DNA of 64,000 nucleotides from Clostridium niameyense. GTDB taxonomy: Bacteria; Bacillota; Clostridia; Clostridiales; Clostridiaceae. Positions 5,881 through 60,867 of this stretch are shown here, in pieces. Position numbers and translations under genes: made by a program. How positions within the stretch are numbered: the first letter of the stretch is position 1; each line of letters opens with the position of its first letter. Under the pieces are notes generated by a model. It worked only from the letters and a program-made list of their open reading frames with translations, was not told the origin of the DNA and ran no database searches. Location: the NCBI RefSeq assembly GCF_001243045.1, contig NZ_LN849007.1:1640989-1704988 (forward strand). The letters run 5' to 3'.

Positions 5881-6157
5881 TAAAATCACTCCAATTTTGC
5901 TATAAAATTTTATGACTTACATACTCTTCATCTTAATACTTTAATATTCTTTGTTTTAATTCCCTTCTTTCTATTAACTTGATTTATAAAGATTACTAAG
6001 TATACTGTTTTTATTTATACAATTATATCACAAAAATCCTAATTTTATAGTTTTATTATAAAATTTATCATATTACCCAATATATTTATACAATTAAAGT
6101 TATTTTTTTATAAAAAGTGTCAAATATATATACTTATTTAAATAATTTTATATAAAA

Positions 6158-6221: not shown

Positions 6222-7934
6222 TTAAATTTTAAATTTTTGAACCATTTCATTAAGTTTTTGTGCAAATTCTGCTTGACTTTGTGCTGTATTTGCTACTTGT
6301 TCCATGGCTTCATTAGATTCATTAATACTTTCTTGTATTCCATTTAAATTTTGTGAAGAATCTTGAGCCATTTGAGCCATATTTTGTACAGCATCACTGA
6401 CTTGATTTATAGTTGCTGTTATTTCTTCGGTCATAGATGCAAGTTCCTCTGACATATTATTTACAAATATTCCATCCTTTTTATATTGTCCCCCAATACT
6501 AACAAAGGCCTGAAATTGAGGTGTTACTTTATCATTCATAAATTTCAATAAACCATTACTATTATTAGATAAATTATCAAAAGCAACTTGCACTTTTTCT
6601 ATAGTACACTTAACATTTTCTACTGCTATTGAGGATTGTTCTGCAAGTTTTCTAACTTCATCCGCAACTACCGCAAATCCCTTGCCATGCTCTCCTGCTC
6701 TTGCAGCTTCTATAGCAGCATTTAATGCAAGTAAATTTGTTTGTTCTGCTATGCTAGCAATAGTTTCAGCCATAACTTTAATATCGTTAACTACTTTTCC
6801 ATTTTCTATATCTTTTAAAATTTCTTTTTCCATTTCTGTATATACAATTTCTGTATCTTCTACAGCTAATTTACTATCCTTTTCAACCGTATTAGCTCTT
6901 TCCTTTATCTCAATAGCATTATTGCTACCATCTAGTGCCTTATCAGACAATACAGATACGCTAGAATTAACTTCTTGTATAGATGCAGATAGTTCTTCTG
7001 CCGTAGCACTAGTTTCTTGAACTCCTCCATTGATTTCTCTTGTAGAAGCATTTATAGTTTCAAACTTTGATGTAATTTCCTCAACAGTTGCAGATAATTC
7101 TTCACTAGCTGCACTCATCTCTTGACTACTATTTATAAGATTTTTTATTAATTCCCCAACATTATGTTGAGCTTTATTTAACTCTGAAGCTACTTGTCCA
7201 AATTCATCTTTTGAATCTATTAATAAGTCCTTTGAAAAATCATATGTACTTAATCTACTAGCCAATTTCTTTATATTATTTAAAGGTTTAGTTATAGATT
7301 TTATTATAAAACTTGCCCATAAAAGTAACGCTATTGCTGATAGAATAATTAATCCTACAATCATTTTAAGAGAACTCTTAAAAGTTTGTTTATTATTTTG
7401 TACTTGTTGCTTTGCCCAAGTATCATTTAATTCAACCATTTTACTTAGTATATTAAATACCTTTTCTTTCATTTTTGTACACTCTAAAAACTTACTTTCA
7501 GCCTCTTCAACTTTACCACTAATTATCAATGAGGTATATTCAAGATTACAAGCTCTATATCCACCTATTGCATCCTTGAAATCAGATATAAGTTTTTTAT
7601 CTTGATTTTTAGTTATACCACCTTCATACTTCTTAATTATATTATTATTTTCATTAGCTAGTTTTGTATTTTTATCAGCTAATTGTTTTATTTTATTTGT
7701 ATCCTTAACATAATACATTAATTCTAAGTTTGAATAAATTTCAAAAGCATTTTTATTTAATTTACTAATTGTAGATATTCCTACTATATTATCACTGTAT
7801 AGATTATTTGATGAATTATTTATTTGCTTTATATCAATAACACCAATACTTCCAATTAACATCATTAAAATACCTGCAAATAAAAAACTTGTTAAAAGTT
7901 TAGTAGATATTTTAGCATTTTTAAAAAAATTCAC
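6222..7934 (-). CDS. Methyl-accepting chemotaxis protein, four-helix-bundle sensor (paralogue)
   Basis: Chemoreceptor of 570 residues with the same architecture as 4168-5880: membrane segment near 10-30, helical sensor to about 185, second membrane segment, HAMP, and a signalling domain with [20 protein letters not shown]. The last 30 residues are nearly identical to the paralogue, while the sensor regions differ more, as expected for duplicated receptors that have taken different ligands. The start is taken as GTG 7934, eight bases after AAGGAG; the GTG at 7943 lies inside that ribosome site. Unusually, no ATG is available at this position. Confidence 0.94.
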
Positions 7935-8219
7935 TGAACCCACTCCTTAATTGTTTTTATTATCTTTTGATTTGATTAATTATAAGGTTATTACATCCCT
8001 CCCATTATATCCTTTATTTATCTATATTAATATATTTCGATATTTTTTTCTTTTAATGTATATCAAAATACATATTTTCTTATTTTACTCAAATTGTATT
8101 TTATTTCTAAAAGTTATTAATATAAGTGGTAAATTAAATATTAATTGGGTATCAAGGTACATTAATGCCATAAAAGCGTTATACATTTAATTAATTCTTA
8201 TAATGTAATTAATTTAGCA

Positions 8220-8249
8220 TGGACATACTTTTTATCTTTTTGTTAAAAT
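8220..8249 (+). promoter_or_regulatory. Likely sigma-A promoter for the cell-wall hydrolase gene
   Basis: TGGACA at 8220-8225 and TAAAAT at 8244-8249 are 18 bases apart, which would start transcription near 8257, right at the beginning of the riboswitch. The preceding part of the gap (7935-8219) is AT-rich with no gene I can support. Confidence 0.55.
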
Positions 8250-8257
8250 AACACTAA

Positions 8258-8371
8258 ATCTTGTCGAAACTCTTAAAAGAGTGCGGGGGATATTTTTGGG
8301 GTGAATCTTAATTATAAGTAGGGTACCTCTAACCCGAACCCGTCAACTAACCTCGTAGACATTATGGAGGG
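8258..8371 (+). promoter_or_regulatory. c-di-AMP riboswitch (ydaO/yuaA class)
   Basis: The region contains the hallmark blocks of this class in order: GCGGGGGA, GGGGTGAATC, AGTAGGGTAC, then CCGAACCCGTCAACTAACC and CTCGTAGACA. The aptamer ends next to the GGAGGG ribosome site (8366-8371) of the hydrolase gene, and I see no terminator between aptamer and gene. This favours control at translation, or a terminator overlapping the aptamer. Riboswitches of this class commonly precede cell-wall hydrolase genes and are typically turned off by c-di-AMP. Confidence 0.93.
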
Positions 8372-8381
8372 ATTTAAACAA

Positions 8382-9155
8382 ATGAAAAAAATTAAAACAT
8401 TATTATTAACTTCAGCTTTATGCTTTACTTTATCATCTCCAGCTTTTGCTGCAGATTATAAAGTATTATCTGGTGACTCATTATATAAGGTAGGAAAACT
8501 TTTTAACACATCATCAGATACTTTAATAAAAGATAATAATCTTAAAGGAACTACCATATATCCTGGACAAGTTTTAAAAGTTCCTAGTAGTACTTATACT
8601 GTAAAAAGTGGAGATAGTTTATTTTTAATCTCTAAAGCAAATGGCATAAAGTTAGATGATTTACGAAAAGCTAATAATAAGTGGGATAATCTTATTTATC
8701 CTGGACAAGTTCTTAATTTACCAGGAAAAACTCCTAATAGTGGAAATTCTAATATTGAAAATACCAATACTGAAAAACCAATCATAAACTATAGCAATGA
8801 AGATTTAGATCTTTTGGCAAGACTTATAACTTCTGAAGCTCAAGATCAACCTTATGATGCACAAGTTGCTGTAGCTTCTGTGGTACTTAACAGAATCAAA
8901 AGTTCTGAATTTCCAAACACCATATCATCTGTAATTTATCAAAAAAGTGATGGATATTATCAATTTACACCTGTAGAAAATGGTTGGATAAAGAAACCTG
9001 CTACAGAGACTTCAAAAAAAGCTGCTAAAGATGCCTTATATGGTGCTGATCCAAGTAATGGAGCTTTATATTACTTTGATGATACTGCTACTAATAAGTG
9101 GTTATGGTCCAAGCCTATAAAAGCTAGAATCGGCAATATGGTTTATGTTAAATAA
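8382..9155 (+). CDS. Secreted LysM cell-wall hydrolase (SleB-like Hydrolase_2 domain)
   Basis: A 257-residue exported peptidoglycan hydrolase. An N-terminal signal peptide ending at the SPAFA-A junction is followed by two LysM repeats (about 24-65 and 70-112; each has the sequence YPGQVL near its end) that bind peptidoglycan, a short Asn/Thr/Ser/Pro linker, and a C-terminal Hydrolase_2 domain (about 145-257) of the SleB/CwlJ lytic type, with the motif ARLITSEAQDQPYDAQVAVA including the expected Glu. The start at 8382 is ten bases after GGAGGG; an in-frame ATG at 8364 precedes that site and lies in the riboswitch. Control by c-di-AMP links this enzyme to wall and osmotic homeostasis. Confidence 0.93.
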   Translation: MKKIKTLLLTSALCFTLSSPAFAADYKVLSGDSLYKVGKLFNTSSDTLIKDNNLKGTTIYPGQVLKVPSSTYTVKSGDSLFLISKANGIKLDDLRKANNKWDNLIYPGQVLNLPGKTPNSGNSNIENTNTEKPIINYSNEDLDLLARLITSEAQDQPYDAQVAVASVVLNRIKSSEFPNTISSVIYQKSDGYYQFTPVENGWIKKPATETSKKAAKDALYGADPSNGALYYFDDTATNKWLWSKPIKARIGNMVYVK

Positions 9156-9189
9156 TGGATATATCTAACTAATTTAATATAGAATTATA

Positions 9190-9228
9190 AAAAACCTGTG
9201 TTTAAAAATTTTTCAACCACAGGTTTTT
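9190..9228 (+). terminator. Bidirectional terminator between convergent genes
   Basis: AAAAACCTGTG and CACAGGTTTTT form an 11-bp stem with a T tract on either strand. It sits between the hydrolase gene and the end of the pilus locus and probably serves both. Confidence 0.85.
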
Positions 9229-9256
9229 ACCATATTTTAATAAAGCTTTATGAATG

Positions 9257-11650
9257 CTAAAACAAATCTGGAATATCTACAACTTCCATTTTTATTTTAG
9301 TTTCTTTATTATCAATTATAAGCTTTAAGTCATCTTGTAGAACTTGTTCACCTTCCATATCAAAGATTACAAAATAATACTTTTCCTCCTTTACTCCAGT
9401 TTTATTAAAAGGCATATTTGTTGAATATAAATTATCAATTTTGTAAATTTTATGTGTGTTATCTTTAACTTCTCCATCTGCATCATATAGGTCATAATTA
9501 TGAATCTTTACTTTATCATTGTCAAAGTTAATTTTAAAATTAGAATCTTTATTATTTACTTTTATTAAAAAACCTACTCTTGTCTTTATATCCTTAGGTA
9601 TTTTTAAACTGCCATCTTCACTTATATTTAAGTGTTCTTTCATTGCTTGTATTTTTTCTTTACTTGGATTTATAATAGTTTTATTTGTATATACCCCATA
9701 GGCTATTAAAGAGGAATCTATACTATCTATCTGTATATTATTTTCATTAAAATATTGATCTATATTTTCCCCAGTTACATCTTTATAAGATATTTTAGAT
9801 GATTTATCTTTTCCTAATATATACTCACCTGATTTAGTTCCTTTTGCTTTAATCTTAAATTCTAAAGGCTTGGCTTTATACTCTCCAGATTTTTCATCTA
9901 ATATATAGTGTATATCTCCTATATTACCTATAAGCTTTCCATTTTCCACTTTAAAACCTGGAGGTAACTCTGTAATTTCTATCCCCTCTGGTATATCTTC
10001 TTCTATAGTCATATTCTTGGCATATAAATCTCTTTTTATAGAATTAGATATCTCCTTATATACATTATCTATATTTTCTTTTGTTTGAGCCTCTTTATAG
10101 AAACATCTTTCACCATCATTGGCTGCATCACTTATAGCCTTTAAATTTTCTGAATGTATATCACTTGTAAAAGCTATCATATAGGATTTTATATTAGAAT
10201 CTTTATCTGAGGCTATTAACTTAGAAAGCTTTTCAGCATAATCCAAACCATTTTTAGAATAATTATCACTTTGTATATCATTTGTATTAGCTTTTCCTTT
10301 ATCATATACATACTCACCATTTTTACCTGTATAATAACAAGGATCTCCATCAGTTAATAATACTATATATCTTTCTCTGTTCTTATTTGGAGAGTCTTTA
10401 AGCATCCAATAGGCATTTCTTAACCCATCACCTATATTAGTTCCTCCCTCAGGTATTATATGATTTATATCTGTTTTTAAATTTTCAAAATCTTTTTTAT
10501 CCTTCAATGGAATTTCCATATTAGCAAAAGCTTCATAACTAACTGCTCCTATACTTACGTTCCCATCATAGTTTTTAAAACTATCTATAAATCTATTTGC
10601 AGCATCTTGTACCGCTTCCAATCTAGTATTACTAGAAAATTTTCTAGTAGAATCCATAAAAAATCCATTAAAGTCACCTAGTATTTTATATGTGTCACCG
10701 TATTTTTCCAAAGGACAGTATATTCTTCTTCCATTTGTATATACTACAATTTCATAGGGCTCAGTTTCACCTTTATGATAATTTAATATCCCATAGTACA
10801 TCTCTTGACCTCTATATATCATACGATATCTTCCATTAGAATCTTCTTTGTAATTATTATCCTCATCTTTTTTATTTAAAGACATTTTCATACTCTCTGA
10901 TTTATCAATTACTAAAACTATATCTAAATCCTTCTTTTGGGGGGTTGCTTTTATAACTTCAGGATTAATAGTATAAGTCATAGTAAATTCATCTTTTTTT
11001 ACTTTTATTTTTTCCTTATCTAATGACTTTTTTATACTCATAGTTGTCATAGCTTTATCTTGTATACTTAATTTAATAGCTTTAAATACTTTTTTTTGAG
11101 AATTCATATATAAATTATTAAAAAGCATATTATAATTTACAAAAGAATCCTCTTTTTCTCCTAAAATATAATTCCCTTTTTTATTGCCTTTTAGCGTAAT
11201 ATAAAACTCTACAGCATTAGCTTTATATTTTTTTTCTTTTTTATCGTAATGATAGGTTATATTGGATAAATTTCCTTTAACTTTATTATTATTAATATTC
11301 ATTTCCTTTGGTACTAACTCTACATTTAAACCTTTGGGAAAAGTTTCTTGAAAAATAATATTAGATACTATTAAATCACTTTTTATTTTTTTCTTACCCC
11401 AGGTCTCTTTATAACACCCTTTTTTATTACTTAAATCTTTAGTAATATCATTATAATCTATATCCTTAAGAGTTATTTTATACTTTATTTTTATATCCTC
11501 TCCTATTTTATAATCACTTTTACTAATAGTTTTATCTACACAAACTTTATCTAATAATTTTTCATTCATATTGTTAGCTTTTATTTTAGTAATACTAATA
11601 AAAAATATAACAACGGTAAGTATTGTTATAAATAATATACTTTTTTTCAT
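9257..11650 (-). CDS. Secreted von Willebrand factor A protein, last gene of the type IV pilus locus
   Basis: A 797-residue exported protein, probably a pilus-associated adhesin. Signal peptide about 1-26; VWA domain about 243-545 with the metal-site residues DKSES (about 249-253), a GGT threonine and TDGD. About 85 residues rich in Tyr and charged residues are inserted straight after DKSES. The VWA domain is flanked by two copies of the same roughly 78-residue module (about 97-177 and 546-624); both contain a GN(L/I) strand, a YKA..(V/L)EF strand and a YILG strand. There is no LPXTG signal, C-terminal membrane anchor or prepilin motif, so retention on the cell must come from partners. It follows three minor pilins closely (25 bases to the nearest). 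ATG 11650 is preferred over a TTG at 11653 because of spacing from GGGGGAG. Role in adhesion is inference. Confidence 0.85.
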   Translation of the reverse strand: MKKSILFITILTVVIFFISITKIKANNMNEKLLDKVCVDKTISKSDYKIGEDIKIKYKITLKDIDYNDITKDLSNKKGCYKETWGKKKIKSDLIVSNIIFQETFPKGLNVELVPKEMNINNNKVKGNLSNITYHYDKKEKKYKANAVEFYITLKGNKKGNYILGEKEDSFVNYNMLFNNLYMNSQKKVFKAIKLSIQDKAMTTMSIKKSLDKEKIKVKKDEFTMTYTINPEVIKATPQKKDLDIVLVIDKSESMKMSLNKKDEDNNYKEDSNGRYRMIYRGQEMYYGILNYHKGETEPYEIVVYTNGRRIYCPLEKYGDTYKILGDFNGFFMDSTRKFSSNTRLEAVQDAANRFIDSFKNYDGNVSIGAVSYEAFANMEIPLKDKKDFENLKTDINHIIPEGGTNIGDGLRNAYWMLKDSPNKNRERYIVLLTDGDPCYYTGKNGEYVYDKGKANTNDIQSDNYSKNGLDYAEKLSKLIASDKDSNIKSYMIAFTSDIHSENLKAISDAANDGERCFYKEAQTKENIDNVYKEISNSIKRDLYAKNMTIEEDIPEGIEITELPPGFKVENGKLIGNIGDIHYILDEKSGEYKAKPLEFKIKAKGTKSGEYILGKDKSSKISYKDVTGENIDQYFNENNIQIDSIDSSLIAYGVYTNKTIINPSKEKIQAMKEHLNISEDGSLKIPKDIKTRVGFLIKVNNKDSNFKINFDNDKVKIHNYDLYDADGEVKDNTHKIYKIDNLYSTNMPFNKTGVKEEKYYFVIFDMEGEQVLQDDLKLIIDNKETKIKMEVVDIPDLF

Positions 11651-11675
11651 CAATACTCCCCCTATTTCTCGCTAC

Positions 11676-12197
11676 TTATCTACTATTTCTAAAAAATACA
11701 TCTGTATCTATGACATAATTTGTTTCTGACTCTTTCATATTAAATTTTATTTTTACTCCCCTAGAATCTTTAAAATTTTTATTATCTAAAGGTTCAAATT
11801 CTAGACTATTAATATTACTTGCTACCAAAAACCTATTATATTTATTATCACTAAATAGCAACTTATTATTTTCTATACTAAATATATACTTTAACTTTTC
11901 ATCTGTAATAAATACTACCTTTTTTATCTTTTGTTTTCCATTAGATTCTTCTATATGTGAATATTTTTCGTTATATATTTCCAATATACCCTTAGCTTCC
12001 ATAGCTTTATCACTTAAAAATTTAGCTCCAAACTGGGCATCATTTTGCAAAGCATCTTTTGATTCTATTTTATTTAAATTACCTACGTTATACTTAAACA
12101 TAGGAAAAATCATAGAAAGCACTAAAAATAATATTCCTATAGTTACCACAACTTCTATTATAGTAAAAGCCCTTTTAGTAGAAGTTATTTTTTTCAA
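11676..12197 (-). CDS. Minor pilin-like protein with prepilin N-terminus (PilW/ComGF-like)
   Basis: About 173 residues with a class III prepilin signal: basic leader then KRA-FTIIEVVVTIGILF, including Glu5 of the mature protein and a hydrophobic helix. The residue before the cleavage site is Ala instead of the usual Gly. The rest is a small mixed domain without a family I can name. The start is likely TTG 12197, six bases after AGAGGTG; the in-frame GTG at 12206 lies within that ribosome site. It sits between the large pilin-like protein and the VWA protein with 3-25 base gaps, so it is translated with them and probably belongs to the tip or priming complex of the pilus. Confidence 0.8.
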   Translation of the reverse strand: MKKITSTKRAFTIIEVVVTIGILFLVLSMIFPMFKYNVGNLNKIESKDALQNDAQFGAKFLSDKAMEAKGILEIYNEKYSHIEESNGKQKIKKVVFITDEKLKYIFSIENNKLLFSDNKYNRFLVASNINSLEFEPLDNKNFKDSRGVKIKFNMKESETNYVIDTDVFFRNSR

Positions 12198-12209
12198 TAT
12201 ATTCACCTC

Positions 12210-14402
12210 TTATTTAAGTATTTTCCATTTTTCTACTGTAATCAATTTTTGTCTTATATCATCTGTACCTAAATCATTTTCTGGTGAAGCTTTTACATAG
12301 GTTAGAACATTTTCTTTATTAGTCTGTGGTCCTATAAATACATTTTTAAAACAATCATAATTTTTAGCTACAATTTTTTTAATATAATCCTTATCATATA
12401 TTATATTTTTTTCTCCATCATCTAATATGATTATATCTCCAAGAGAAATTACAGTACCCCTAAAATTTATTTTCCCCGATAAATATACATTTCCTTTAGT
12501 TACTATAATACCTTTATTCTCTTTATTACTTACATCTATAAAATCTGAATTCCCTTGTCTATCTCCGCCTTCTCCTATTAACGTAAGTTGTTTGCTCTCA
12601 TCTCCATTCAAATAAATTACAGAATTTTTATTAACATTTTTGTATTTAATTTTGCTAAAGTCTACCTCTGTAGAAACTGTTCTCAATAGTTTTCCATTTT
12701 CATATATATGCCAGCTAGAATTTTGAAAGTTTTCTTTATCTATAGTACTACTTCTTATAGATAAACCCGTAGCATCCCCCATAGCATAGGCCATAATTGC
12801 ATAATTACCTGCCCTTTTTCTAATATCTTCTTCTAAATCTACGCTATAATTTCCAGTATAAAACTTTCCATCAGATACTCCCGATCCTATAGTAGTTTTA
12901 TTTTTAGGTAAACTTATACCATTTTTCTTTAATTTCTCTGAGCTTTTTGTAGCACTTAATGCGAAATAGTCACTTTTATCTTGCCATGTTAATTCTTCTC
13001 CATTTTTAAATTTTGTAACTAATATTAATGGATCTCTATATTCAAATATTACATTATCTTCATTTAAAGGTCTTTTTCTTAAAATAGGCTCTCCATTATT
13101 ATCTCTTCTTATATTTCCTTCTTCATCTAACTCATATTTCCCCTGTTGTACTGGATAACAATAAACTTTATAATTTCCTTTTACAGCTACAGATTCTCCT
13201 GTTTGATAAGCTGGTTTAGTTTTTATATAAGCTGTCCCCATCAATAAAAGTTCATTGCCTATATTTATTTCAGATCCATTTTTTTCTCCTAAATCTTCTG
13301 TATTAACTAAAATAGAACTAGAAACTTTAGATTTTTCTTCTTCTTTAATATCACTACTTTTATTTATATCATTTAACCCATAAAATCCATTTTCTATATT
13401 AACATGAGACTTTAAGGCATTAAAAACTAAATCATTATTAGTATATACAGCTTTTTTTACTTGTAGTTTTGAGTTTGAAGCCTCCTTATCTAAAAGAACA
13501 TTAGCTGCATATATATTTCCACCATTATTCTTATCTTCATTTACATTTACAATATTATTAGGACTTTTAAATTTGAAAACTCCTGGGGTTACTATATCAC
13601 CTTTAAAATTACAGTTAGCCCCTTCTATATTTATACCTCCATCTTTATCCCTACCTTTTATATAAATATCTCCATCTATATTTAATTTACCCTTGGCTTT
13701 TAAATTTCCATCTGCACAAATCGCTTTAGTCCAAACAGGCTTTATAGGTACCTCCACCTTCTTACTTTCTACACTATAAATTTCTCCATAATTAGGCACT
13801 AAAACATTATAGGTAACCTTTAATATTTTTTCAGACTTGTCCTTATAAGTTGACTTTAAATTTAATGAAAGAGCTTCCCTTTCTTTATTCTTTACTTTAA
13901 TTTTTTGAAACCCCTCATGCTTACACTGTTTTTCATTTTCCAACTTTACTTTAGGAGTATTTCCATGTTTATTTTTTATATAAGGATTTTTTCTAATACC
14001 ATCTATCTTTATTCCTAATTCAATATTATCTTTTATATTATTTTTTATATATCCTTTATATTCTCTTTTAAAAATATTATTCTGCATAGATTTTAATTTT
14101 ACTTCATCTACCGTACCATCTTCTTTTTTAGGATATTTTTCATCATCTAATTTCTCCATGTAACTTAATGCACTTTTATTTCCATGCTCTATAGCATTTT
14201 CTATAGTTTTACCTATTATGCCATAAGCTATATCCAACCCTGCCTCTGAAAAATATTGATTTCTTTTTTCTAAACTTTCACTAAATCTTTTATTATAGGA
14301 AGAAACAGTTAAAGAAAGTAATGATACTCCTAAAATAATTAATATACTTATAGAAACTAAGACTATCATTAAAGAGTACCCTTTTTTCACTGTACTTTTC
14401 AT
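12210..14402 (-). CDS. Large pilin-like protein (PilX/GspK-like) lacking Glu5
   Basis: A 730-residue protein starting with a short basic leader, KKG-YSLMIVL and a hydrophobic helix (about 9-32), i.e. a prepilin-like N-terminus with Gly before the cleavage site but Ile at mature position 5 in place of Glu. The body is unusually large for a pilin and contains repeated short beta strands with Gly turns (for example GDIYIKGRDKDGG and GNVYLSGKINFRG), suggesting a beta-helix or beta-solenoid. In type II secretion, the large minor pseudopilin GspK, which caps the filament, also lacks Glu5; by analogy this is a candidate filament cap. It was chosen as PilX-like by N-terminus and locus position; the body has no named family I recognise. 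Confidence 0.78.
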   Translation of the reverse strand: MKSTVKKGYSLMIVLVSISILIILGVSLLSLTVSSYNKRFSESLEKRNQYFSEAGLDIAYGIIGKTIENAIEHGNKSALSYMEKLDDEKYPKKEDGTVDEVKLKSMQNNIFKREYKGYIKNNIKDNIELGIKIDGIRKNPYIKNKHGNTPKVKLENEKQCKHEGFQKIKVKNKEREALSLNLKSTYKDKSEKILKVTYNVLVPNYGEIYSVESKKVEVPIKPVWTKAICADGNLKAKGKLNIDGDIYIKGRDKDGGINIEGANCNFKGDIVTPGVFKFKSPNNIVNVNEDKNNGGNIYAANVLLDKEASNSKLQVKKAVYTNNDLVFNALKSHVNIENGFYGLNDINKSSDIKEEEKSKVSSSILVNTEDLGEKNGSEINIGNELLLMGTAYIKTKPAYQTGESVAVKGNYKVYCYPVQQGKYELDEEGNIRRDNNGEPILRKRPLNEDNVIFEYRDPLILVTKFKNGEELTWQDKSDYFALSATKSSEKLKKNGISLPKNKTTIGSGVSDGKFYTGNYSVDLEEDIRKRAGNYAIMAYAMGDATGLSIRSSTIDKENFQNSSWHIYENGKLLRTVSTEVDFSKIKYKNVNKNSVIYLNGDESKQLTLIGEGGDRQGNSDFIDVSNKENKGIIVTKGNVYLSGKINFRGTVISLGDIIILDDGEKNIIYDKDYIKKIVAKNYDCFKNVFIGPQTNKENVLTYVKASPENDLGTDDIRQKLITVEKWKILK

Positions 14403-14413
14403 TTTGTTCCCTC

Positions 14414-15316
14414 CTATTCCTCTACATTTATATAAGATATAATATCTTCCAAAACTTTATTTTGGTCTATATCAAAAACCTTAACCCGTACCTTATATAA
14501 TCTAGTATTATTTTTGTATTTCTTATTATTTACCATTATATTATTATAAGTTTTTATCTTTCCTAATTTATTTTCTACAGTATAATTAGATGAAAAATCA
14601 GGTTTTTGAAGAAAATATAATCTTAATTCTTCTTCTTCTTTATTTTCAGCTTTTACCTTTAAATTACATTTTGTATCATTTTCAAAATATATAATTAGAT
14701 TTGAAGCTTTTTCCTTAGAATTATCTGAGTTTTTTTCTATAATAATAGGTGTTTTTAAAGACTTGAATTTATTATCCGTTAAATTAACTTTAATTTTATG
14801 CTTTTCATTTACTATTTCTACAATATTGTTGTTTTTAATATTTACACTATCTAAACTTACAGTAGAATAAGAATTATAAAATTCCATTTTATTTTCATTT
14901 TGTACTCTTTTTATTTTTAACTTTCCATCATACATTATATCTTTAATTTTCTTTTTATTATTACTACTTTTGAATTTATATTCTTCTTCCTCTTTTATAG
15001 TTTTCTCCACCTTAAAATTTTTAGGTATCTCTTTGTCTTGTTTATTTGTAAATTCCGTTTTATACATTCCCGTTTTATTATCTATAAATATTTCTCTATC
15101 CATCTTAGCTTTTTCTGTATACTTTTGTGCTACATAAATAGCTTTTTGTTTATCTTCTGAATTTTTGTTAGCTTTACTACTTTGAAAAAACATAGTAAGT
15201 ACAGGCACTATAAGTAATGATATTATAGAAATACTTATGACCACTTCTAACAATGTAAGTGCCTTCTTTTTTTCATATTTCAAATTCTTGTGTATTTTAT
15301 TAATTTCTTTTAACAT
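14414..15316 (-). CDS. Minor pilin-like protein with prepilin N-terminus (PilV/GspI-like)
   Basis: A 300-residue protein with leader ...KKKA-LTLLEVVISISIISLL: a prepilin signal with Glu5 but Ala in place of Gly before the cleavage site, as in the other small minor pilin of the locus. After the hydrophobic helix (about 18-42) the protein is Lys/Asn-rich with predicted beta strands and no domain I recognise. The start overlaps the end of the pilO-like gene by 17 bases, pointing to translational coupling. Function as a minor pilin that helps start or cap the filament is inferred from motif and neighbours. Confidence 0.8.
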   Translation of the reverse strand: MLKEINKIHKNLKYEKKKALTLLEVVISISIISLLIVPVLTMFFQSSKANKNSEDKQKAIYVAQKYTEKAKMDREIFIDNKTGMYKTEFTNKQDKEIPKNFKVEKTIKEEEEYKFKSSNNKKKIKDIMYDGKLKIKRVQNENKMEFYNSYSTVSLDSVNIKNNNIVEIVNEKHKIKVNLTDNKFKSLKTPIIIEKNSDNSKEKASNLIIYFENDTKCNLKVKAENKEEEELRLYFLQKPDFSSNYTVENKLGKIKTYNNIMVNNKKYKNNTRLYKVRVKVFDIDQNKVLEDIISYINVEE

Positions 15317-16550
15317 TTACACTAGTCCCTTCAGAAGATATATTTACTCTAGGCTTTGTAATATCATCATCTTGTATATTTACATTTACTTGTTTATCCG
15401 TTTTGTTATATATATTAATGTCTGCCCTAGACAAATCATTTTTATCTATTCTTTTATTAGAATAAATCTTTAAGTTTATATTAGATGACTTAGGTATGAA
15501 TTCTTCCCCTTTTCCATTAAAATCCGTGGGATAAGCATCGTTTTCAGTTTTATATTTAAAATAGTATTTATCTTTCTCCTTTAAAAAGTAAATTTCTACA
15601 TTTTCTTTTACTGGATTATCTGCATATACATAACTAGATTTCACCTTGTCATTAGCTTTCCCAAGCATAACTGTAGGTAAATCAGATTGTTCACTCCTCA
15701 TTGCCATAACAAAATCAAGAGTGTCCTCTTTATTTAATTTATGAATATCCTCAATAGTGGTTCCAACTTCATTGGAAATTCCTATTAATCCATCAAAAGG
15801 ATTTTGCTTTCCATATTCCCCTTCAATTTTCCATTTTAAAAATTCCTTATCATCTTCATTTATTTTAGGTACAGCATAAAATTCTAAAGTAGCTACTCCA
15901 GTAACCAAACTATCAGAACCTTTATTTATTTTTATATTAGACATAACTATTCTTTTTTCAAATTCCTCTACTTTACTTATAAACTCTACTACATCCAAAT
16001 AATTTCCTTTGAAATTTATAGTAGCAGTTATAGATTCTACTGGATTTTTATATTTCTCATTACTATCATTCTTAGGATTATTTAAATTCTTATTATTTTT
16101 GTTCTTTTTATTATTTTTTTCTGTTCCCTTATATTCTCTCGCTAAATCCTCCAGATGATTTTTGTTTTCTTTTTTTTTCTCAAATTGAAAAGCTTTTACC
16201 TCATTAAATTCCCTTTCAGAAAATTTTATAGAAAAAGCTGTTAATTCAGACTTTTTAATCAACTCATCTAATTCTACTATTATTTTTTCTTGTTCTATAC
16301 TTGGGAAAAATAAAGTAGTATTATCTTGTATTTTATAATTTAGTATTTTTAAATTTCTTTGGGTTTTTTTTATAATTTTATCCATACCAACTATTTTATA
16401 TTTTTTATCTTCATACTCTTTCTTTATAGCTTTTAGAGTATTAATCTTTTGCCTTTGAGGTATGTATATAAAATTATAGTAAACAACTATAGTAGATAAT
16501 ATAGCTAATATTATAAGCAAATATTTTTCTCTTTTAGTTACCTTCATCAT
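15300..16550 (-). CDS. pilO: PilO-like type IV pilus alignment protein
   Basis: About 416 residues: a short cytoplasmic start, one membrane segment (about 8-28), a coiled-coil stretch and an extracytoplasmic region. The gene follows pilM and pilN in the standard order, and its topology fits PilO, which with PilN links cytoplasmic PilM to the assembly platform. The middle contains a low-complexity Lys/Asn stretch (about 145-165). The protein is about twice the usual PilO length; the extra C-terminal region (about 230-416) contains a short GTTIEDIHKLN stretch resembling LysM, which I cannot confirm. Start: four closely spaced Met codons (16559-16547) follow AAAGGA; 16550 has the best spacing. 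Overlaps pilN by 17 bases. Confidence 0.8.
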   Translation of the reverse strand: MMKVTKREKYLLIILAILSTIVVYYNFIYIPQRQKINTLKAIKKEYEDKKYKIVGMDKIIKKTQRNLKILNYKIQDNTTLFFPSIEQEKIIVELDELIKKSELTAFSIKFSEREFNEVKAFQFEKKKENKNHLEDLAREYKGTEKNNKKNKNNKNLNNPKNDSNEKYKNPVESITATINFKGNYLDVVEFISKVEEFEKRIVMSNIKINKGSDSLVTGVATLEFYAVPKINEDDKEFLKWKIEGEYGKQNPFDGLIGISNEVGTTIEDIHKLNKEDTLDFVMAMRSEQSDLPTVMLGKANDKVKSSYVYADNPVKENVEIYFLKEKDKYYFKYKTENDAYPTDFNGKGEEFIPKSSNINLKIYSNKRIDKNDLSRADINIYNKTDKQVNVNIQDDDITKPRVNISSEGTSVNVKRN

Positions 16551-17151
16551 CATCAACATCCTTTAACATGCATTTTAAAGAAAAAGAATAATTTTTAGAA
16601 GTATTCTCATCTAAGTTTTCATTTATGTTGGATACTTGTACATCTTCTATAAAATTTAAAGCCTTTAAATTATGTTGAATTTCTGCTATACTTTGTCTAT
16701 TTTCTGAAACTCCTTGAATTTGTATACCATCAGATGATATAGATGTTAATTTAAAAGATACATTTCCTGGTACAACCTTAGAAATTTGTTCTAATAATTT
16801 AGAATTTACTATGTCCCTTTTTTCCACATTAGTATTTATTTTTTTAACTGAAGCATAATATTCGTCTAAGATTTTCTCTTTTTTTTCTAAAGTCTCCATT
16901 GTACTAATTTTAAGCTTTGATGCTGGTGAATTAACGAATTTTTCTAAATTCCCTATTTCATTTTCTAAGTTCTTTATATGGATAAAATTCAAAAAATAAC
17001 TCCCTATAAAAATTAAAATTAAAATAGATATACTGGATATAATAACATTAGTATTTCTCTTTTCCTGCTTTTCTTTTCCTATATAATTTTTAAAAAAGTT
17101 AAAGTCTTGAGATCTATTATTTTTATTTAAAATAAATTTTAAATCACTCAT
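16534..17151 (-). CDS. pilN: PilN-like type IV pilus assembly protein
   Basis: A 205-residue bitopic protein: cytoplasmic N-terminus of about 35 residues, where PilN proteins contact PilM, one membrane segment (about 36-57), a coiled coil (about 58-105) and a ferredoxin-like domain (about 115-195) containing a QSIAEIQHNLKAL helix typical of the family. It forms a dimer or heterodimer with PilO. It lies 12 bases after pilM and overlaps pilO, so the three are co-expressed. Ribosome site AGGTG precedes ATG 17151. Confidence 0.88.
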   Translation of the reverse strand: MSDLKFILNKNNRSQDFNFFKNYIGKEKQEKRNTNVIISSISILILIFIGSYFLNFIHIKNLENEIGNLEKFVNSPASKLKISTMETLEKKEKILDEYYASVKKINTNVEKRDIVNSKLLEQISKVVPGNVSFKLTSISSDGIQIQGVSENRQSIAEIQHNLKALNFIEDVQVSNINENLDENTSKNYSFSLKCMLKDVDDDEGN

Positions 17152-17163
17152 ATATGCACCTAC

Positions 17164-18219
17164 CTATAATCTTATTAAAGCTCCTATAGCATTTAAACAA
17201 TAATCTATGTCATTGTCATACACATCCTTTGAAAAAACTATATTACTCATAGAATTTATTTTTTCTACAGCTATATTTAAATCTTTTGATATATACTTAT
17301 CTATTCCTTTTAGTCTAGAACTTCCCCCATATAAATATAGTTTGTCTAAAACATTGCCAGTTTTTTTACTTTTATAATAATTAATTATTCTAAGTATTTC
17401 TTCAATCCATATAGTTATCTCTTTTTTTATAATATAGTTTAACTCTTCCATATATTCCACCTTATTTTCTATCATTAAATCACAATGATTCTTTTTTCTC
17501 TTTTCTGCATCCTTTAATTTTATATGGAAATTAGTTGATATTGCCTTATCAATGTTCTTTCCACCCCTATCAATAATTCTACTAAATTCTAACTGACCTT
17601 TAGAAAATATACTAATAGTTAGCTGCTCTGATCCCATATCTATAATGCCAATAGTATTGTCTTTCTTATAATCTTCTTCATTTATTTTTATGTCATCTTT
17701 AAACAACTTATTTATTGAATTAGGATTTATGTCTAAAGCTTTAGGCTCTAAATCTAAAGAATCTAACAACTTTACATAATCCTCTATTAAAATTTTAGGA
17801 TATACCACCACAAAAATTCTTAGCTTTTCTATATTTTCTTCTTTAATATTTTCAATAATTTTATGCTGGAGTATATACTCTTCCATATTTATAGGCAAAT
17901 ATTGTTGTATTTCAAACTGAATTATAGATTCTAATTCTTTCCCCTCAGCCTTAGGTACTATAATTTCTCTATTAATTATTAAAGTACTATTACTAGTTAT
18001 AATAGCTTCTATTTCCTTAAAGTCATACATACCCAGGCTTTCATCTAATAGTTGAAAAAGACTCTCATAACTATTTATTTTTCCATCACTAATTAAATCT
18101 TTACTATTTTCTATTACTGCTAAATTATTTATATATATTTTATTTTTCTTTATCTTTCCTGATACTATTTTAGTGTTGTTATTTCCTAAATCCAAAGAGA
18201 GAAATTTTTTTAAAAACAA
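17164..18219 (-). CDS. pilM: PilM type IV pilus actin-like ATPase
   Basis: A 351-residue actin-fold cytoplasmic protein. The phosphate-1 motif appears as LSLDLGNNNTKIV near the N-terminus, the second as IGIIDMGSEQLTISIF (about 190-205), and the adenosine motif as LYLYGGSSRLKGI (about 290-302). PilM binds ATP and the N-terminus of PilN and connects the assembly motor to the envelope proteins. The start is TTG 18219, seven bases after GGAGGT; no ATG fits. A hairpin separates this gene from pilA. Confidence 0.92.
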   Translation of the reverse strand: MFLKKFLSLDLGNNNTKIVSGKIKKNKIYINNLAVIENSKDLISDGKINSYESLFQLLDESLGMYDFKEIEAIITSNSTLIINREIIVPKAEGKELESIIQFEIQQYLPINMEEYILQHKIIENIKEENIEKLRIFVVVYPKILIEDYVKLLDSLDLEPKALDINPNSINKLFKDDIKINEEDYKKDNTIGIIDMGSEQLTISIFSKGQLEFSRIIDRGGKNIDKAISTNFHIKLKDAEKRKKNHCDLMIENKVEYMEELNYIIKKEITIWIEEILRIINYYKSKKTGNVLDKLYLYGGSSRLKGIDKYISKDLNIAVEKINSMSNIVFSKDVYDNDIDYCLNAIGALIRL

Positions 18220-18310: not shown

Positions 18311-18781
18311 TTACTTAACATATATACCTGTTGGTTTACTATTAGTACCATATAATACATTCTTAGAATTATTTTTTTCCTCTATTTTAGTTACCTTTCC
18401 AGCTTCATTAATTGTTATTGTTAACGGGAAGGATGCTCCTTTAGTTTTTAATTTTAAAGTACCTTCTTTTAAATACTCTTCTATTTTCTTAGCATCTCCT
18501 GTATTGGTAGTATTTGTAAGTTCAAGCTTTCCATCCTTGCCATATTTTGAGCCTGTCGAGTCCTTTTCTATAGTTCCTTCTGTTATTAATATTTCTGTAG
18601 CATGAGCTATATTTCTACCTAAATTAATATCTGAATCAATGTTGGCATTATTTCTTACCTTTATAAAATTAGGTATTGCAAAGGCTGCAATAATTGCTAT
18701 TATAGCTATAACTACTATAAGTTCTATTAGGGTAAAACCTTTTTTATTTTTAATATTTTTTAATAAATTTCTTCTAAACAT
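18311..18781 (-). CDS. pilA: Major type IV pilin
   Basis: A 156-residue prepilin with a 15-residue basic leader and the perfect signal KKG-FTLIELIVVIAIIAII; Gly before the cut, Phe1 and Glu5 are all present. The mature protein is about 141 residues, with a hydrophobic helix and a globular C-terminal domain rich in Lys, Thr and Gly; there are no cysteines, so no disulfide-bounded loop. This is the only protein here with an ideal signal and the strongest ribosome site (GGAGG), which suits the main filament subunit. PilD (21757-22503) would cleave and methylate it. Confidence 0.93.
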   Translation of the reverse strand: MFRRNLLKNIKNKKGFTLIELIVVIAIIAIIAAFAIPNFIKVRNNANIDSDINLGRNIAHATEILITEGTIEKDSTGSKYGKDGKLELTNTTNTGDAKKIEEYLKEGTLKLKTKGASFPLTITINEAGKVTKIEEKNNSKNVLYGTNSKPTGIYVK

Positions 18782-18799: not shown

Positions 18800-20005
18800 T
18801 TATTGTATATGATTATAAATATCAAATACCGGTAGTACTATCGCTATAATCATAAAACCTATGATTACACCCATAATTAATATCATTATAGGCTCTAACA
18901 TAGAGGTGAATTGTTGTATATAAGCTTCTAATTCATCATCATAAAAATCCGCTGTCTTATTTAGGATATAATCTAATGAGCCAGATTCCTCACCTATTTT
19001 TACCATAGAACTTAACATAGGTGGGAAGTAGCCTGTCTTATATAATGGTTGTGCTAATCCAGCTCCTTTAACAACTTCCTCTTTTACTTGTATAATCTTA
19101 TTTTCTATAATTTTATTTCCTATAATTTTTGATACTACCTCTAAGCCTTCTACTAAAGTTATTCCGCTAGCTAAAACTGTAGATAGTGTTCTCGTAAATC
19201 TAGAAACTATTATTTTTTCATTTATTTTTTTTAATATAGGGAAATTTAATTTTATTCTATTTAAAATGATTTCTCCTCTTTTAGTTTTAAAATAATATTT
19301 CAGTAAAAACACTATTAAAAGTATAATTGACAGTACTATATACCACTTAGTTTTTAAAATATTACTAATACTCATCATAATCTTAGTAGCTATAGGAAGT
19401 TCCACATTATTATCATCAAACATTCCTATAAATATAGGCATTACAAAAGTTAATATTAAGGTAATCAAACCTAAAGATAAAATTGCTAACATTATAGGAT
19501 AAACCATAGCAGCTTTTACTTTATTGTTTATTTTATTTTCCTTTTCATAATGCTCTGCCATTCTTCTCATTACCACCTCTAAGTTTCCACTAACTTCCCC
19601 TGCCTGTACCATACTTATAAGTAAATCTGGAAAAACTTCTTCTTCTTTTCTCATAGCCTCAGATAGATTTAATCCTTTTCTTATGTTTTCCTCTATAGAA
19701 AACATACTTCCCTTTAACCTTTTATTTGTAAGTTGTTCCCCTAATACATTCAAAGAGTTAGTAATGTTAGAACCTGCATTTATCATAGTATAAAATTGCC
19801 TACAAAATATTGCTATATCTTTAATTTTTACTTTCGTCATCCATTTAATTTTTAAATTTTTTTCTTTTGATAGCGGCTGCACCCTAAGGGGATAGTAATT
19901 ATTGCTTTTTATCATGCTTAATACTTCATCTTTATCCTTAGCCTTATATATCCCCTCTAACCTCTCTCCATTTTTGTTCATTATTTTATACTTAAAATTG
20001 GCCAT
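18800..20005 (-). CDS. pilC: PilC type IV pilus inner-membrane platform protein
   Basis: A 401-residue polytopic protein of the GspF/PilC family. Two related T2SF domains (about 68-190 and 270-392) each contain the family core, seen as EVSGNLEVVMRRMAEHYEKE and EESGSLDYILNKTADFYDDE, with membrane segments near 165-195, 215-235 and 370-400. It forms the platform on which the PilB motor turns pilins into the filament. Start ATG 20005 follows GAGGTGAG. The 38-base gap to pilB indicates one operon. Confidence 0.94.
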   Translation of the reverse strand: MANFKYKIMNKNGERLEGIYKAKDKDEVLSMIKSNNYYPLRVQPLSKEKNLKIKWMTKVKIKDIAIFCRQFYTMINAGSNITNSLNVLGEQLTNKRLKGSMFSIEENIRKGLNLSEAMRKEEEVFPDLLISMVQAGEVSGNLEVVMRRMAEHYEKENKINNKVKAAMVYPIMLAILSLGLITLILTFVMPIFIGMFDDNNVELPIATKIMMSISNILKTKWYIVLSIILLIVFLLKYYFKTKRGEIILNRIKLNFPILKKINEKIIVSRFTRTLSTVLASGITLVEGLEVVSKIIGNKIIENKIIQVKEEVVKGAGLAQPLYKTGYFPPMLSSMVKIGEESGSLDYILNKTADFYDDELEAYIQQFTSMLEPIMILIMGVIIGFMIIAIVLPVFDIYNHIQ

Positions 20006-20043: not shown

Positions 20044-21735
20044 TTAAAAATCTCTAAGATAAGCTATTTTTAAAAATTCTTCTAGAGTAGTTTGTCCTTT
20101 TAATACCAATTCCCTACAAGACATTTTTATGGTTTTCATGCCGTTTTTTATAGACAACTCTTGTAAATCATCACTACTTTTGTTTTGCATAATCATCTCT
20201 ACATGTTCCCTTCCTATTTCCATTATTTCAAAAACTCCTGTTCTACCTATATAACCTGTATTCTTACAATATCCACAACCCTGTCCTTTGTATAGCATCA
20301 ATTTTTTATTTTTATTTATATCCAATATATCCTTCTCCTGCTCATTAGCTTCATGAGATTCTATACAATAAGGACATATTTTTCTTACAAGTCTTTGAGA
20401 TATTACCCCAGATAATGAGGTAGATATTAAATAAGGCATTACTCCCATATCTTTAAGCCTTATTATTGAAGATGCTGAATCATTGGTATGAATAGTACTT
20501 AGAACTAAATGCCCTGTAATAGCTGCCCTTATGGCAATTTCTGCAGTTTCTCTATCTCTTATTTCACCTATCATTATAATATCTGGATCTTGTCTTAATA
20601 TTGAACGAAGACCATTTGCAAAGGTCAATCCCGCTTTTGTATTAACATTAACTTGATTTACTCCTTGTAAAACATATTCTACTGGATCTTCTATGGTAAC
20701 TATATTATTTTTGCTATCATTTAAATCATTTAATAGAGTATATAAGGTAGTAGATTTTCCACTTCCTGTAGGTCCTGTAACTAAAATTATTCCATGAGGA
20801 CTTTTTATTATTTTTTCTATTTTTTCAATATCCTCTTTCTCCATATTTAATTTATCTTTTCCAATTAAATAATTTTCCCTATTTAATATTCTTATAACTA
20901 CTTTTTCTCCGAAAACTGTAGGAAGAGTGGATACCCTAAGATCTATTTCTTTTTTATTAATTTTCTTTAAAATTCTTCCATCTTGTGGAATTCTCTTTTC
21001 TGCAATATCTAAATTGGCAAGTATTTTTATTCTTGTAACCAAGGGTACTAAACTATCCTTTGAAATAGTAGATATCTGTTGCAATTCACCATCTATTCTG
21101 TATCTTATTTTAACTAATTCGTCAAAAGGTTCTATGTGTATATCACTAGCTCTAGATTGTATTGCATTTTGAATGAGGGAATCTAATATTTTTACTACAG
21201 GAGCATTTTTTATATCATCAAATTCTATATTTTCTATTTCCTTTTCTTTAATATCTTTTTTATTTTCTCTCCTTAACTCTTGTGCTACTTCTTGAACATA
21301 TTGATCTATATAATACCTTTCAATAGCTCTTTTTATTTCTTGTCTGGTAGCAACAAAAGGCTCTACATCATAACCTGAAACGATCTTTACATCATCTATA
21401 GCAAATATATTTAAAGGATCCCACATAGCCACTTGTATCTTATTGTCTTTAAACCCTATAGGAACTAATAAGTGTTTTAATGCTAATTTCTCTGGTATAA
21501 CTTTTATTGCTTCTTTATTAATATTTATCATATTTATATCAACTTTTTTAATTCCCAGTTGTTGACTTATAGCCTCCATTATATTCTCTTCTGTTATTAT
21601 TTTTTCATCTATTAATATCTCACCTAATTTTTTACCCTTACTTTTTTGTTTATTCAAAGCTGACTTTAATTGTTCCTTTGTTATCTTATTAGCTTCAACT
21701 AATATATCTCCTAACTTTTTCTTTTTTAAATCCAT
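20044..21735 (-). CDS. pilB: PilB type IV pilus extension ATPase
   Basis: A 563-residue GspE/PilB hexameric ATPase. An MshE-type N-terminal domain (about 1-150) of the kind able to bind c-di-GMP in some relatives is followed by the catalytic core: Walker A GPTGSGKSTT, an Asp-box region containing TIEDPVEY, Walker B IMIGEIRDRETAEIA, and the His box with TGHLVLSTIHTND. Four cysteines (CPYC and CGYC, about 460-490) form the zinc-binding element characteristic of extension motors. It drives filament extension with PilC. No retraction ATPase (PilT) is encoded nearby. Confidence 0.95.
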   Translation of the reverse strand: MDLKKKKLGDILVEANKITKEQLKSALNKQKSKGKKLGEILIDEKIITEENIMEAISQQLGIKKVDINMININKEAIKVIPEKLALKHLLVPIGFKDNKIQVAMWDPLNIFAIDDVKIVSGYDVEPFVATRQEIKRAIERYYIDQYVQEVAQELRRENKKDIKEKEIENIEFDDIKNAPVVKILDSLIQNAIQSRASDIHIEPFDELVKIRYRIDGELQQISTISKDSLVPLVTRIKILANLDIAEKRIPQDGRILKKINKKEIDLRVSTLPTVFGEKVVIRILNRENYLIGKDKLNMEKEDIEKIEKIIKSPHGIILVTGPTGSGKSTTLYTLLNDLNDSKNNIVTIEDPVEYVLQGVNQVNVNTKAGLTFANGLRSILRQDPDIIMIGEIRDRETAEIAIRAAITGHLVLSTIHTNDSASSIIRLKDMGVMPYLISTSLSGVISQRLVRKICPYCIESHEANEQEKDILDINKNKKLMLYKGQGCGYCKNTGYIGRTGVFEIMEIGREHVEMIMQNKSSDDLQELSIKNGMKTIKMSCRELVLKGQTTLEEFLKIAYLRDF

Positions 21736-21756: not shown

Positions 21757-22503
21757 TTAGAATAATGTTATATACCATAAAAATATTTTTTCTCCAAAAA
21801 ATATAGAAAATATAGAGGCCATAGCAATGTATGGTACAAAAGGCATATAATCTTTTTTATCCTTTTTTTTAAGCAAAATTAAAATTATCCCCATAACTCC
21901 ACCGAAAATAAAAGAAAGCATTAAAGTTATAGCTGTAAGCTTTACCCCTAAAAACAATCCTACTATTAAACAAATATCTAAATCTCCAGTTCCCATAGAA
22001 TTTGTAATAAAAATTATGCTGCCCATAACAATTAAAGATAATAAAGCTCCATATATATATATACTTATATTATGTTTTAAGTAAAATTTTTCTATAAGTA
22101 TAAAAATTATGGCTAAAACAGCAAAAGGTATTGTGGTTTTAGAATAAACATTTGTGGTATCTAAATCAATTATTGCTATAGATAAAATAAAACAAATTAA
22201 TGTTATATTTTTAACAAAATAAAAACTAACTCCATAAAAATTATAAATTACTAAAAATAATAAACCGGTACTTATCTCTATAATTGGATACTTAATAGAT
22301 ATTTTACTTTGACAATATCTACATTTTCCTTGTAAAAAAATATAACTTATTACTGGAATCAGATCATAAGGTTTTATTAAATTATTACAACTTCCACAAT
22401 GAGATGGAGGGTACACTATAGATTCTCCTTTAGGTATTCTATAAATACACACATTTAAAAAGCTTCCCATAATTAACCCTAAAATAAAAACTATAATTTT
22501 CAT
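21757..22503 (-). CDS. pilD: Prepilin peptidase / N-methyltransferase
   Basis: A 248-residue polytopic membrane enzyme of the A24 aspartic peptidase family that removes prepilin leaders and methylates the new N-terminus. The cytoplasmic N-terminal domain carries two cysteine pairs (CGSC and CRYC) as in bifunctional PilD. The two catalytic aspartates appear in AIIDLDT and in the GTGDLDICL (GxGD) motif. About seven to eight membrane segments. ATG 22503 follows GAGGTGTG; an ATG at 22521 lies before that site. It is the first gene of the pilus locus, 21 bases before pilB. Confidence 0.93.
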   Translation of the reverse strand: MKIIVFILGLIMGSFLNVCIYRIPKGESIVYPPSHCGSCNNLIKPYDLIPVISYIFLQGKCRYCQSKISIKYPIIEISTGLLFLVIYNFYGVSFYFVKNITLICFILSIAIIDLDTTNVYSKTTIPFAVLAIIFILIEKFYLKHNISIYIYGALLSLIVMGSIIFITNSMGTGDLDICLIVGLFLGVKLTAITLMLSFIFGGVMGIILILLKKKDKKDYMPFVPYIAMASIFSIFFGEKIFLWYITLF

Positions 22504-22774
22504 ACTTAATACACACCTCATAGTTTTATATAATATGTTTTGAAAAATAAATTTTATTAATTGTATAATTTTGTATATTATACAATTTTTTATTTAATTA
22601 TATTATTATTATAAGTAATTTAAATTATTTATTCAATGATTTGCATGGTATTTTTTTCTATAATTTTCAATTAAATCATATTATATTTTTTATTTAATTT
22701 AATAATACTTTTATTACTTTTGGGAAAACTAAAATATATTGAAAATTAAGCTTATTTAAAGGAGGTTCAATATA

Positions 22775-41899: not shown

Positions 41900-41949
41900 C
41901 ATAACCTTATTATAACTTTATATAGTACTATATAAAATCTAAAACATAA

Positions 41950-42047
41950 AATTTCCTTTCCTACGTTGGCATTATCCAAGTCAGGTTATGAGGGTCTAGA
42001 ATAACATTCTACTCTCAGCCCATCAATATAGGCTCCCCTTAGAAATT
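41950..42047 (-). promoter_or_regulatory. TPP riboswitch (THI element)
   Basis: On the minus strand the canonical blocks follow in order: GGGGAGCC, GATGGGCTGAGAG, GACCCTCATAACCTGA, CTTGGATAATGCCAACGTAG and GGAAA, enclosed by a P1 helix (AATTTC with GAAATT). It controls thiS-thiF-thiG-thiH-thiE/tenI by transcription termination: TPP binding would free the terminator. Confidence 0.97.
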
Positions 42048-42074
42048 AGTGTAATTATTTGGTTGTACCAACTA

Positions 42075-60738: not shown

Positions 60739-60756
60739 AGTGGTCCTACGTACTTA

Positions 60757-60866: not shown

Positions 60867-60867
60867 A

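Follow-up and report, generated by a model that had tools for sequence, protein, structure and literature searches.

How do the type IV pili of Gram-positive bacteria hold an adhesin? To our knowledge, this is largely open outside Streptococcus sanguinis. A locus in Clostridium niameyense raises the question. We analyzed a stretch of 64,000 nucleotides (the window), in which a minus-strand type IV pilus operon runs from 22521 to 9257. The genes pilD-B-C-A-M-N-O are followed by V, K, and W, which encode pilin-like proteins, and by a gene for a protein with a VWA domain:

21757..22521, minus strand: pilD, prepilin peptidase (assigned by inspection of the sequence)
20044..21735, minus strand: pilB, assembly ATPase (assigned by inspection of the sequence)
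18800..20005, minus strand: pilC, platform protein (assigned by inspection of the sequence)
18311..18781, minus strand: pilA, major pilin (profile match)
17164..18219, minus strand: pilM (clear profile match)
16534..17151, minus strand: pilN (clear profile match)
15300..16559, minus strand: pilO, PilO/GspM-like (weak T2SSM match and position)
14414..15316, minus strand: V, PilV/GspI/ComGE-like minor pilin, 300 aa, Glu5 present
12210..14402, minus strand: K, large PilX/GspK-like pilin, 730 aa, without Glu5
12333..13751, minus strand: β-solenoid body of K, residues 218-690 (the range of the tapirin alignment), predicted tapirin-like fold
11676..12206, minus strand: W, ComGF/PilW/GspJ-like minor pilin, 176 aa, Glu5 present, C-terminal FRN
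9257..11653, minus strand: VWA protein, candidate secreted modular tip adhesin, 798 aa, TTG start
9974..10945, minus strand: VWA domain and flanking segments, residues 237-560, with MIDAS residues D250, S252, S254, T405, and D435
9260..9718, minus strand: conserved C-terminal domain of the VWA protein, residues 646-798
9260..9274, minus strand: extreme C-terminal tail of the VWA protein, IPDLF (consensus LPDLF-COOH)

Because pilB, pilC, pilD, pilM, pilN, pilO, and a major pilin with GFxxxE occur together, we consider this a Pil-type operon. Genes were called with a simple longest-ORF script, and the last four lie where the first-pass annotation had placed them, in the order V, K, W, VWA after pilO. 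V starts inside the end of pilO, and the gaps that follow are 11 bases (V-K), 3 bases (K-W), and 22 bases (W-VWA). Beyond the VWA gene, a LysM/cell-wall-hydrolase gene lies in the opposite orientation (8364-9155). A DNA search of plasmids gave no match. We propose that V, K, and W probably cap the pilus and that the product of the fourth gene, a candidate secreted adhesin of modular build, is held by them at its C-terminal end. We will call the products of the fourth gene tip proteins.

A protein search of genome contigs with K found two loci: one from Clostridium magnum (L001, 38% identity) and one in a Coxiella assembly, which matched weakly. The order in C. magnum is V, K, W, a 193-aa gene with a K-like N-terminus, and a 1722-aa protein with two VWA matches. 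To judge co-inheritance, we chose a panel of relatives by PilM (PF11104) and not by the VWA gene. Among 187 genomes of C. magnum's family, 154 matched PilM at E 1e-8, some of them partially. We took 100 neighborhoods, namely the best PilM match from each of the 97 other genomes with E < 1e-25 and three slightly weaker matches; with the window and C. magnum, this gave 102.

V-K-W with a K of at least 550 aa was found in 70 of the 102 neighborhoods by a filter on order and size. This filter makes errors: L098 passed with pilD in the place of W, and L103 failed, its operon being on the other side of pilM (L155). The remaining 32 neighborhoods include short contigs, other arrangements, and smaller pilin sets, some of which look C. 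perfringens-like. In 67 of the 70 V-K-W loci, a co-directional gene of at least 450 aa lies within the next two genes. Of the other three, L028 breaks off, L098 has no tip gene, and in L061 the VWA gene follows three ORFs later. Median gaps across the panel were 13 (V-K), 6 (K-W), and 22.5 bases (W-tip gene). The genomes that we compared are related, so our counts are not independent events and a Fisher test of them is inflated. The four-gene order is conserved across the relatives, which excludes chance as its source: the order is inherited as a block. Its recurrence in other clostridia had been set beforehand as a check on the first-pass annotation, and the check was clearly passed.

The tip protein of the window matches the VWA family (PF00092, E 2.6e-16, above the cut-off), and all five residues of the MIDAS motif are present. 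In an alignment of 40 tip proteins, the D, S, and S of this motif are at least 90% conserved. Across the 67 tip proteins, we found no sortase motif near the end (0/67) and no C-terminal hydrophobic segment (0/67). A hydrophobic N-terminus is present in 65 of the 67, and the other two (L055 and L060) are later pieces of split genes. Thus, as had been claimed, this is a secreted VWA protein without an anchor of its own. Whole tip proteins range from 624 to 2511 aa; lengths of 544 and 619 aa correspond to pieces of split genes, and the protein from L036 is cut by its contig.

The front of the tip protein is exchangeable. VWA was found in 49 of the 67 by an iterated profile whose seed was the domain from the window, and Pfam's VWA_2 was found in 41 of the 60 that we scanned (36/40 and 5/20, in sets without overlap). 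Seven of the 67 had neither VWA nor the C-terminal domain that is described below. In 60 of the 66 complete tip proteins, we also searched for further Pfam modules and found DUF5057 (15), PA14 (13), GLEYA (9), and several Ig families; these counts overlap, as one protein may carry several families. A search of the openly licensed literature found no paper on DUF5057. The first-pass annotation had described the fourth component as a VWA protein. The window's protein does contain VWA, but we rejected VWA as the defining feature of the fourth protein, because the C-terminal domain and tail are more constant.

This variety also bears on the idea that the main job of the fourth protein is to prime pilus assembly or to sense surface contact, as has been proposed for PilY1, with adhesion being secondary. 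PilY1 and the minor pilins are said to prime pili in Myxococcus, and the VWA domain is reportedly tied to surface sensing in Pseudomonas. However, modules such as PA14 and GLEYA stand beside VWA in some tip proteins and in its place in others, and this is easier to square with ligand binding than with a sensor that stays fixed. Also, some operons have pilins but no tip protein (for example, L044, which has a 200-aa K, L052, and L070), so the tip protein is not needed for a pilus. We consider a mainly priming or sensing role to be very improbable.

Our structure models were made from two- and four-row alignments of the window and C. magnum only. The model of the tip protein had a pLDDT of 57.5 overall and below 50 in the C-terminal domain. 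With the VWA part as the query, Foldseek's first matches were tip adhesins of sortase-assembled pili from Gram-positive bacteria, a VWA protein from Catenulispora, Mfa5, and PilB from S. sanguinis (3e-12). Integrins, COPII, and other VWA proteins follow further down the same list. So, the nearest folds do include pilus-tip VWA adhesins, but the VWA fold is common and these matches are not specific.

The C-terminal end is the more constant part. An iterated profile detected a C-terminal domain, which spans about 160 residues, in 47 of the 67 tip proteins (no match in the other 20). A search of the sequences of solved structures with its profile gave no match. The tail motif P-x-[LVIHY]-[FDYKEQ] ends 61 of the 66 complete tip proteins, with exactly LPDLF in 24. 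The five without it end in LKDLF, LQDLF (twice), DGLLY, and GVDYF, and two tip proteins from outside the 70 loci end in RELF (L149) and RPLF (L084); these run against our model. Besides the start, the tail proline is the only invariant column in the alignment of 40 tip proteins, which leaves out the five motif-less proteins, where this proline is missing. In some tip proteins, a polar linker lies between the last conserved stretch and the tail, so we read the tail as a putative separate linear motif. Among the other proteins of at least 300 aa from the 102 loci, just 4 of 656 have the tail motif, and displaced tip proteins account for three of the four (L061, L111, and L120).

To see where the C-terminal domain occurs more broadly, we examined 225 genomes of the order. 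In total, 67 genomes contained the domain, which occurred at 70 places, and 86 genomes contained K: 63 genomes had both, 23 had K only, 4 had the domain only, and 135 had neither. Of the 70 places, 57 are in PilM regions or in C. magnum, and we fetched and read the other 13. Two of these (G033 and G179) are contig-end pieces without pilus genes, and in each of these genomes the operon breaks at a contig end elsewhere. The rest are at pilus genes or decayed pilus loci. Among the four domain-only genomes, G195 has a 910-aa K adjoining the domain, which the genome search had missed, and the others (G034, G154, and G167) have decayed pilus loci.

The 23 genomes with K only break down as follows: in ten, the fetched loci contain a tip protein with a fitting tail (G035, G059, G060, G064, G076, G130, G160, G161, G178, and G182), four have a tip protein that ends otherwise (G043, G054, G070, and G206), and five are cut by contig ends (G046, G050, G211, G213, and G214). 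G036 and G203 lie outside the fetched loci, G127 lacks a tip protein and has a K of 200 aa, and in G188 the K match is weak and no tip protein was seen. In one genome (G205), there are two pilus operons, and a separate tip protein is encoded in both. Outside the order, the domain is almost absent: an even draw across the class had it in 9 of 391 genomes, six of which were already counted. The other three are weak partial matches, and their loci, roughly 3 kb long, show no pilus gene by profiles.

Could the fourth protein be an ordinary surface adhesin that is co-transcribed with the pilins and is either wall-bound or released, with its C-terminus doing another job? VWA surface proteins are common in clostridia, the fourth protein has its own hydrophobic N-terminus, and its contact with the pilins is something we infer. 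However, neither type of anchor was seen in any of the tip proteins. Across the 225 genomes, the domain occurs only at pilus loci, decayed remnants, and the two contig-end pieces, and the other proteins encoded at these loci almost never carry the tail. These patterns make an ordinary surface adhesin unlikely.

Another reading is that the pilus machine recognizes the LPDLF tail as a signal for sorting or export, and that the VWA protein is the substrate of a pseudopilus like that of type II secretion. Conserved motifs at the extreme C-terminus are often sorting signals. Furthermore, V and W are similar to GspI and GspJ, or to the ComG pilins, and K lacks Glu5, as GspK does. On the other hand, given a Sec-type signal peptide and a single membrane, a second export step would be unnecessary, and there is usually one dedicated protein per genome instead of many substrates. 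We think that secretion of the VWA protein by a pseudopilus is improbable, although somewhat less so than a mainly priming or sensing role.

If the fourth protein is instead held at the pilus tip, then what holds it? V and W are of the types that had been claimed, based on weak profile matches, all of which are below the curated cut-offs. V matched N_methyl (3.9e-4), ComGE (3.5e-9), and PilV (6e-6), while W matched N_methyl (3e-3), ComGE (3e-5), and ComGF (2e-3). With cleavage sites guessed by a script, Glu at +5 is present in V from 64 of the 70 loci, in W from 68, and in K from none. Because W ends in a nearly invariant FRN or LRN (66/70), it is our first candidate for the docking partner of the tip protein. 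When we searched solved structures by sequence with W, the pilin helix alone matched.

We also asked if the tip protein coevolves with the pilins, using mirror-tree partial correlations that were controlled for PilM, PilN, and PilO (300 permutations). After this control, the correlation was 0.46 for V-K and 0.30 for V-W. For the C-terminal domain, it was 0.07 with K (reached by 25/300 permutations), 0.06 with V (40/300), and 0.11 with W (3/300), which is a weak lean towards W. The last residue of the tail was associated with columns of K in 65 of 66 cases, but columns of PilM or PilO did so in 64 of 66; K does hardly better, so this association may reflect phylogeny. Neither result separated partnership from phylogeny.

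K itself was described in the first-pass annotation as a GspK-like large pilin. The 730-residue protein does follow V, and it shares with GspK the absence of Glu5; V and W would fill the roles of GspI and GspJ, which form a trimer with GspK at the tip, going by their weak sequence matches. By sequence, though, we rejected K as a GspK: the T2SSK profile matched neither the window's K (E 1) nor any of the 48 of the 70 Ks that we scanned (E 0.01). The window's K has a PilX-like helix, and its sole profile match is to DUF2572 (2e-4, below the cut-off). Among the 48 aligned Ks (E 0.01), DUF2572 matched 22, PilX_N matched 5, and Bactofilin matched 4. The predicted fold of K's body is also less like GspK than like the tapirins, with ComZ of Thermus being further off.

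How might these parts work together? V, K, and W would assemble first and cap a type IVa-like fiber. In type II secretion, a pilin without Glu5 (GspK) caps the fiber; because K lacks Glu5, it would by the same logic be the outermost subunit. The body of K, a predicted β-solenoid, would be too bulky for the shaft and would project forward, as was argued for ComZ, a β-solenoid pilin that was said to fit only at the pilus tip (PMC6561018). The fourth protein would exit via its Sec-type signal peptide, anchor-free, and the cap would hold it by its C-terminal domain and LPDLF-type last residues. Its exchangeable N-terminal part (in the window, VWA) would then bind a ligand.

This arrangement would resemble PilY1/PilC of diderm type IVa pili, which go with the minor pilins FimU-PilV-PilW-PilX, in that gene order. 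In both systems, a secreted protein combines a C-terminal part that stays constant with N-terminal modules that can be exchanged, and minor pilins present it (in our model, for the clostridial protein). However, the constant part of the clostridial protein is not the β-propeller of PilC. PF05567, the β-propeller family, matched neither the window's protein (E 1) nor any of 60 of the 66 complete tip proteins (E 1e-3), so we rejected membership in the PilY1 family. PilC and PilY1 are described as having a common C-terminal β-propeller and differing N-termini, with PilY1 being modular, in PMC8179133. In the same paper, the VWA adhesin PilB is proposed to sit at the type IV pilus tip of the Gram-positive S. 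sanguinis. In PilB, the VWA domain is fused to a pilin, while the clostridial VWA protein is separate: the window's protein does not match N_methyl, and its sequence, read by eye, shows no prepilin motif. PilU, PilV, and PilK of C. difficile have been proposed to form a tip complex, and we liken them to the V-K-W cap by description only; the passages that we consulted do not mention a modular secreted partner (PMC9556784). In a 2011 survey of Gram-positive pili, the terms Willebrand, adhesin, and GspK are absent from the main text (PMC3244431). Tip complexes, VWA tip adhesins, and modularity were known. Our searches of the openly licensed literature turned up nothing that describes the link between K and tapirins, the separate clostridial tip protein, or its tail. 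With the C-terminal domain in 67 of the 225 genomes of the order, this tip kit would be a monoderm counterpart of PilY1, built from other parts.

K appears to be a relative of the tapirins, which are the cellulose grippers of some heat-loving bacteria. The structure model of K, from the same small alignments, had a mean pLDDT of 42.7 and was confident only at about residues 226-343 and 594-680. Foldseek alone gave no match to K below E 0.2, and the K profile against the sequences of solved structures gave only weak matches to antifreeze proteins (E 0.86-1.2) and two others at chance level. Nevertheless, K is predicted to share the β-helix fold of the tapirins' C-terminal domain. We compared K profiles to seven tapirins or tapirin-like proteins, with and without the first 90 residues. 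At full length, the original profile gave E values of 5e-7 to 0.036, and a broadened profile gave 3e-14 to 7e-10. Without the first 90 residues, the original profile matched none of them, while the broadened profile matched three of the seven (1.4e-3 to 7e-3) and 0 of 140 shuffles. hhalign gave 97.6 over the full length and 80.2 without the N-terminus. The match is clear for the whole protein and weak for the body alone.

On balance, we lean slightly towards the view that clostridial Ks and tapirins form one family of tip pilins, and that pilus tips evolve along two routes: either the solenoid of K is the adhesin, as in tapirins, or K carries a separate secreted adhesin with a swappable front, which would plug into the K-V-W cap by its constant C-terminal domain and LPDLF tail. 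Tapirins bind cellulose (PMC7142884); where they stand, K itself would be the adhesin. ComZ, whose fold is a weaker match to K, is a DNA binder, and the passages of PMC6561018 that we consulted name no VWA partner for it. If there is one such family, it would explain how tapirins stay on the cell: kinship with K offers a testable account of their display, as tip pilins. In the 20 kb fetched around tapirin loci, we found neither a VWA gene nor a gene for the C-terminal domain. The Caldicellulosiruptor tapirins also differ from K in being encoded by two tandem genes, in all three of the intact loci that we read.

The putative tip protein, which is encoded after the pilin-like proteins V, K and W and carries a VWA domain in the window, can have a different body in relatives. 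In the relative's locus L031 (4923-8498), and in others, this alternative body contains the Pfam domain of unknown function DUF5057. Pfam scans found DUF5057 in the tip proteins of L031 and 11 other loci among 20 that were scanned, and in 3 of 40 additional ones. We found no paper naming DUF5057 in the openly licensed literature.

One relative's pilus operon (L044) encodes V and W and a K of just 200 amino acids, and it has no tip protein. Both the tip protein and K's large body are absent from this locus.

Some relatives carry additional K-like genes or a different gene order. In Clostridium magnum (L001), W and the VWA gene are separated by an extra gene (13014-13595), whose product of 193 amino acids has a prepilin N-terminus resembling that of K. 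L148 contains two V-K pairs (7426-14431), across pilD from pilB, pilC and pilM; W and the tip gene lie behind pilO in L111, a locus that overlaps L148. In L182 (7111-11237), V is followed by two consecutive K-type genes, the second of which is present as two ORFs. (L160, a short locus at the same place as L182, terminates in a stretch of unknown residues.) These tandem K-type genes recall the pair of tapirins, the cellulose-binding proteins of Caldicellulosiruptor.

Elsewhere, tip genes appear split or displaced, or the pilus locus is decaying. The tip genes of L055 and L060 are apparently broken into two ORFs, and in L061, other ORFs intervene between W and the tip gene. The pilus loci L141, L146 and L147 are decaying, and each retains a fragment bearing the tip protein's conserved C-terminal domain next to pilD or other remnants.

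In the window, the neighbour beyond the end of the pilus operon is a LysM/cell wall hydrolase gene (8364-9155) in the opposite orientation, with a c-di-AMP riboswitch immediately before it. Past the hydrolase gene lie two chemotaxis-like proteins that resemble each other and have the same length.

Chemotaxis-like genes and riboswitches in the window
4168-5889, minus strand: methyl-accepting chemotaxis-like protein, 573 amino acids, identified by reading
6222-7943, minus strand: methyl-accepting chemotaxis-like protein, 573 amino acids, identified by reading
8252-8376, plus strand: c-di-AMP riboswitch (RF00379, 93 bits)
41941-42049, minus strand: TPP riboswitch
60743-60875, minus strand: Moco riboswitch
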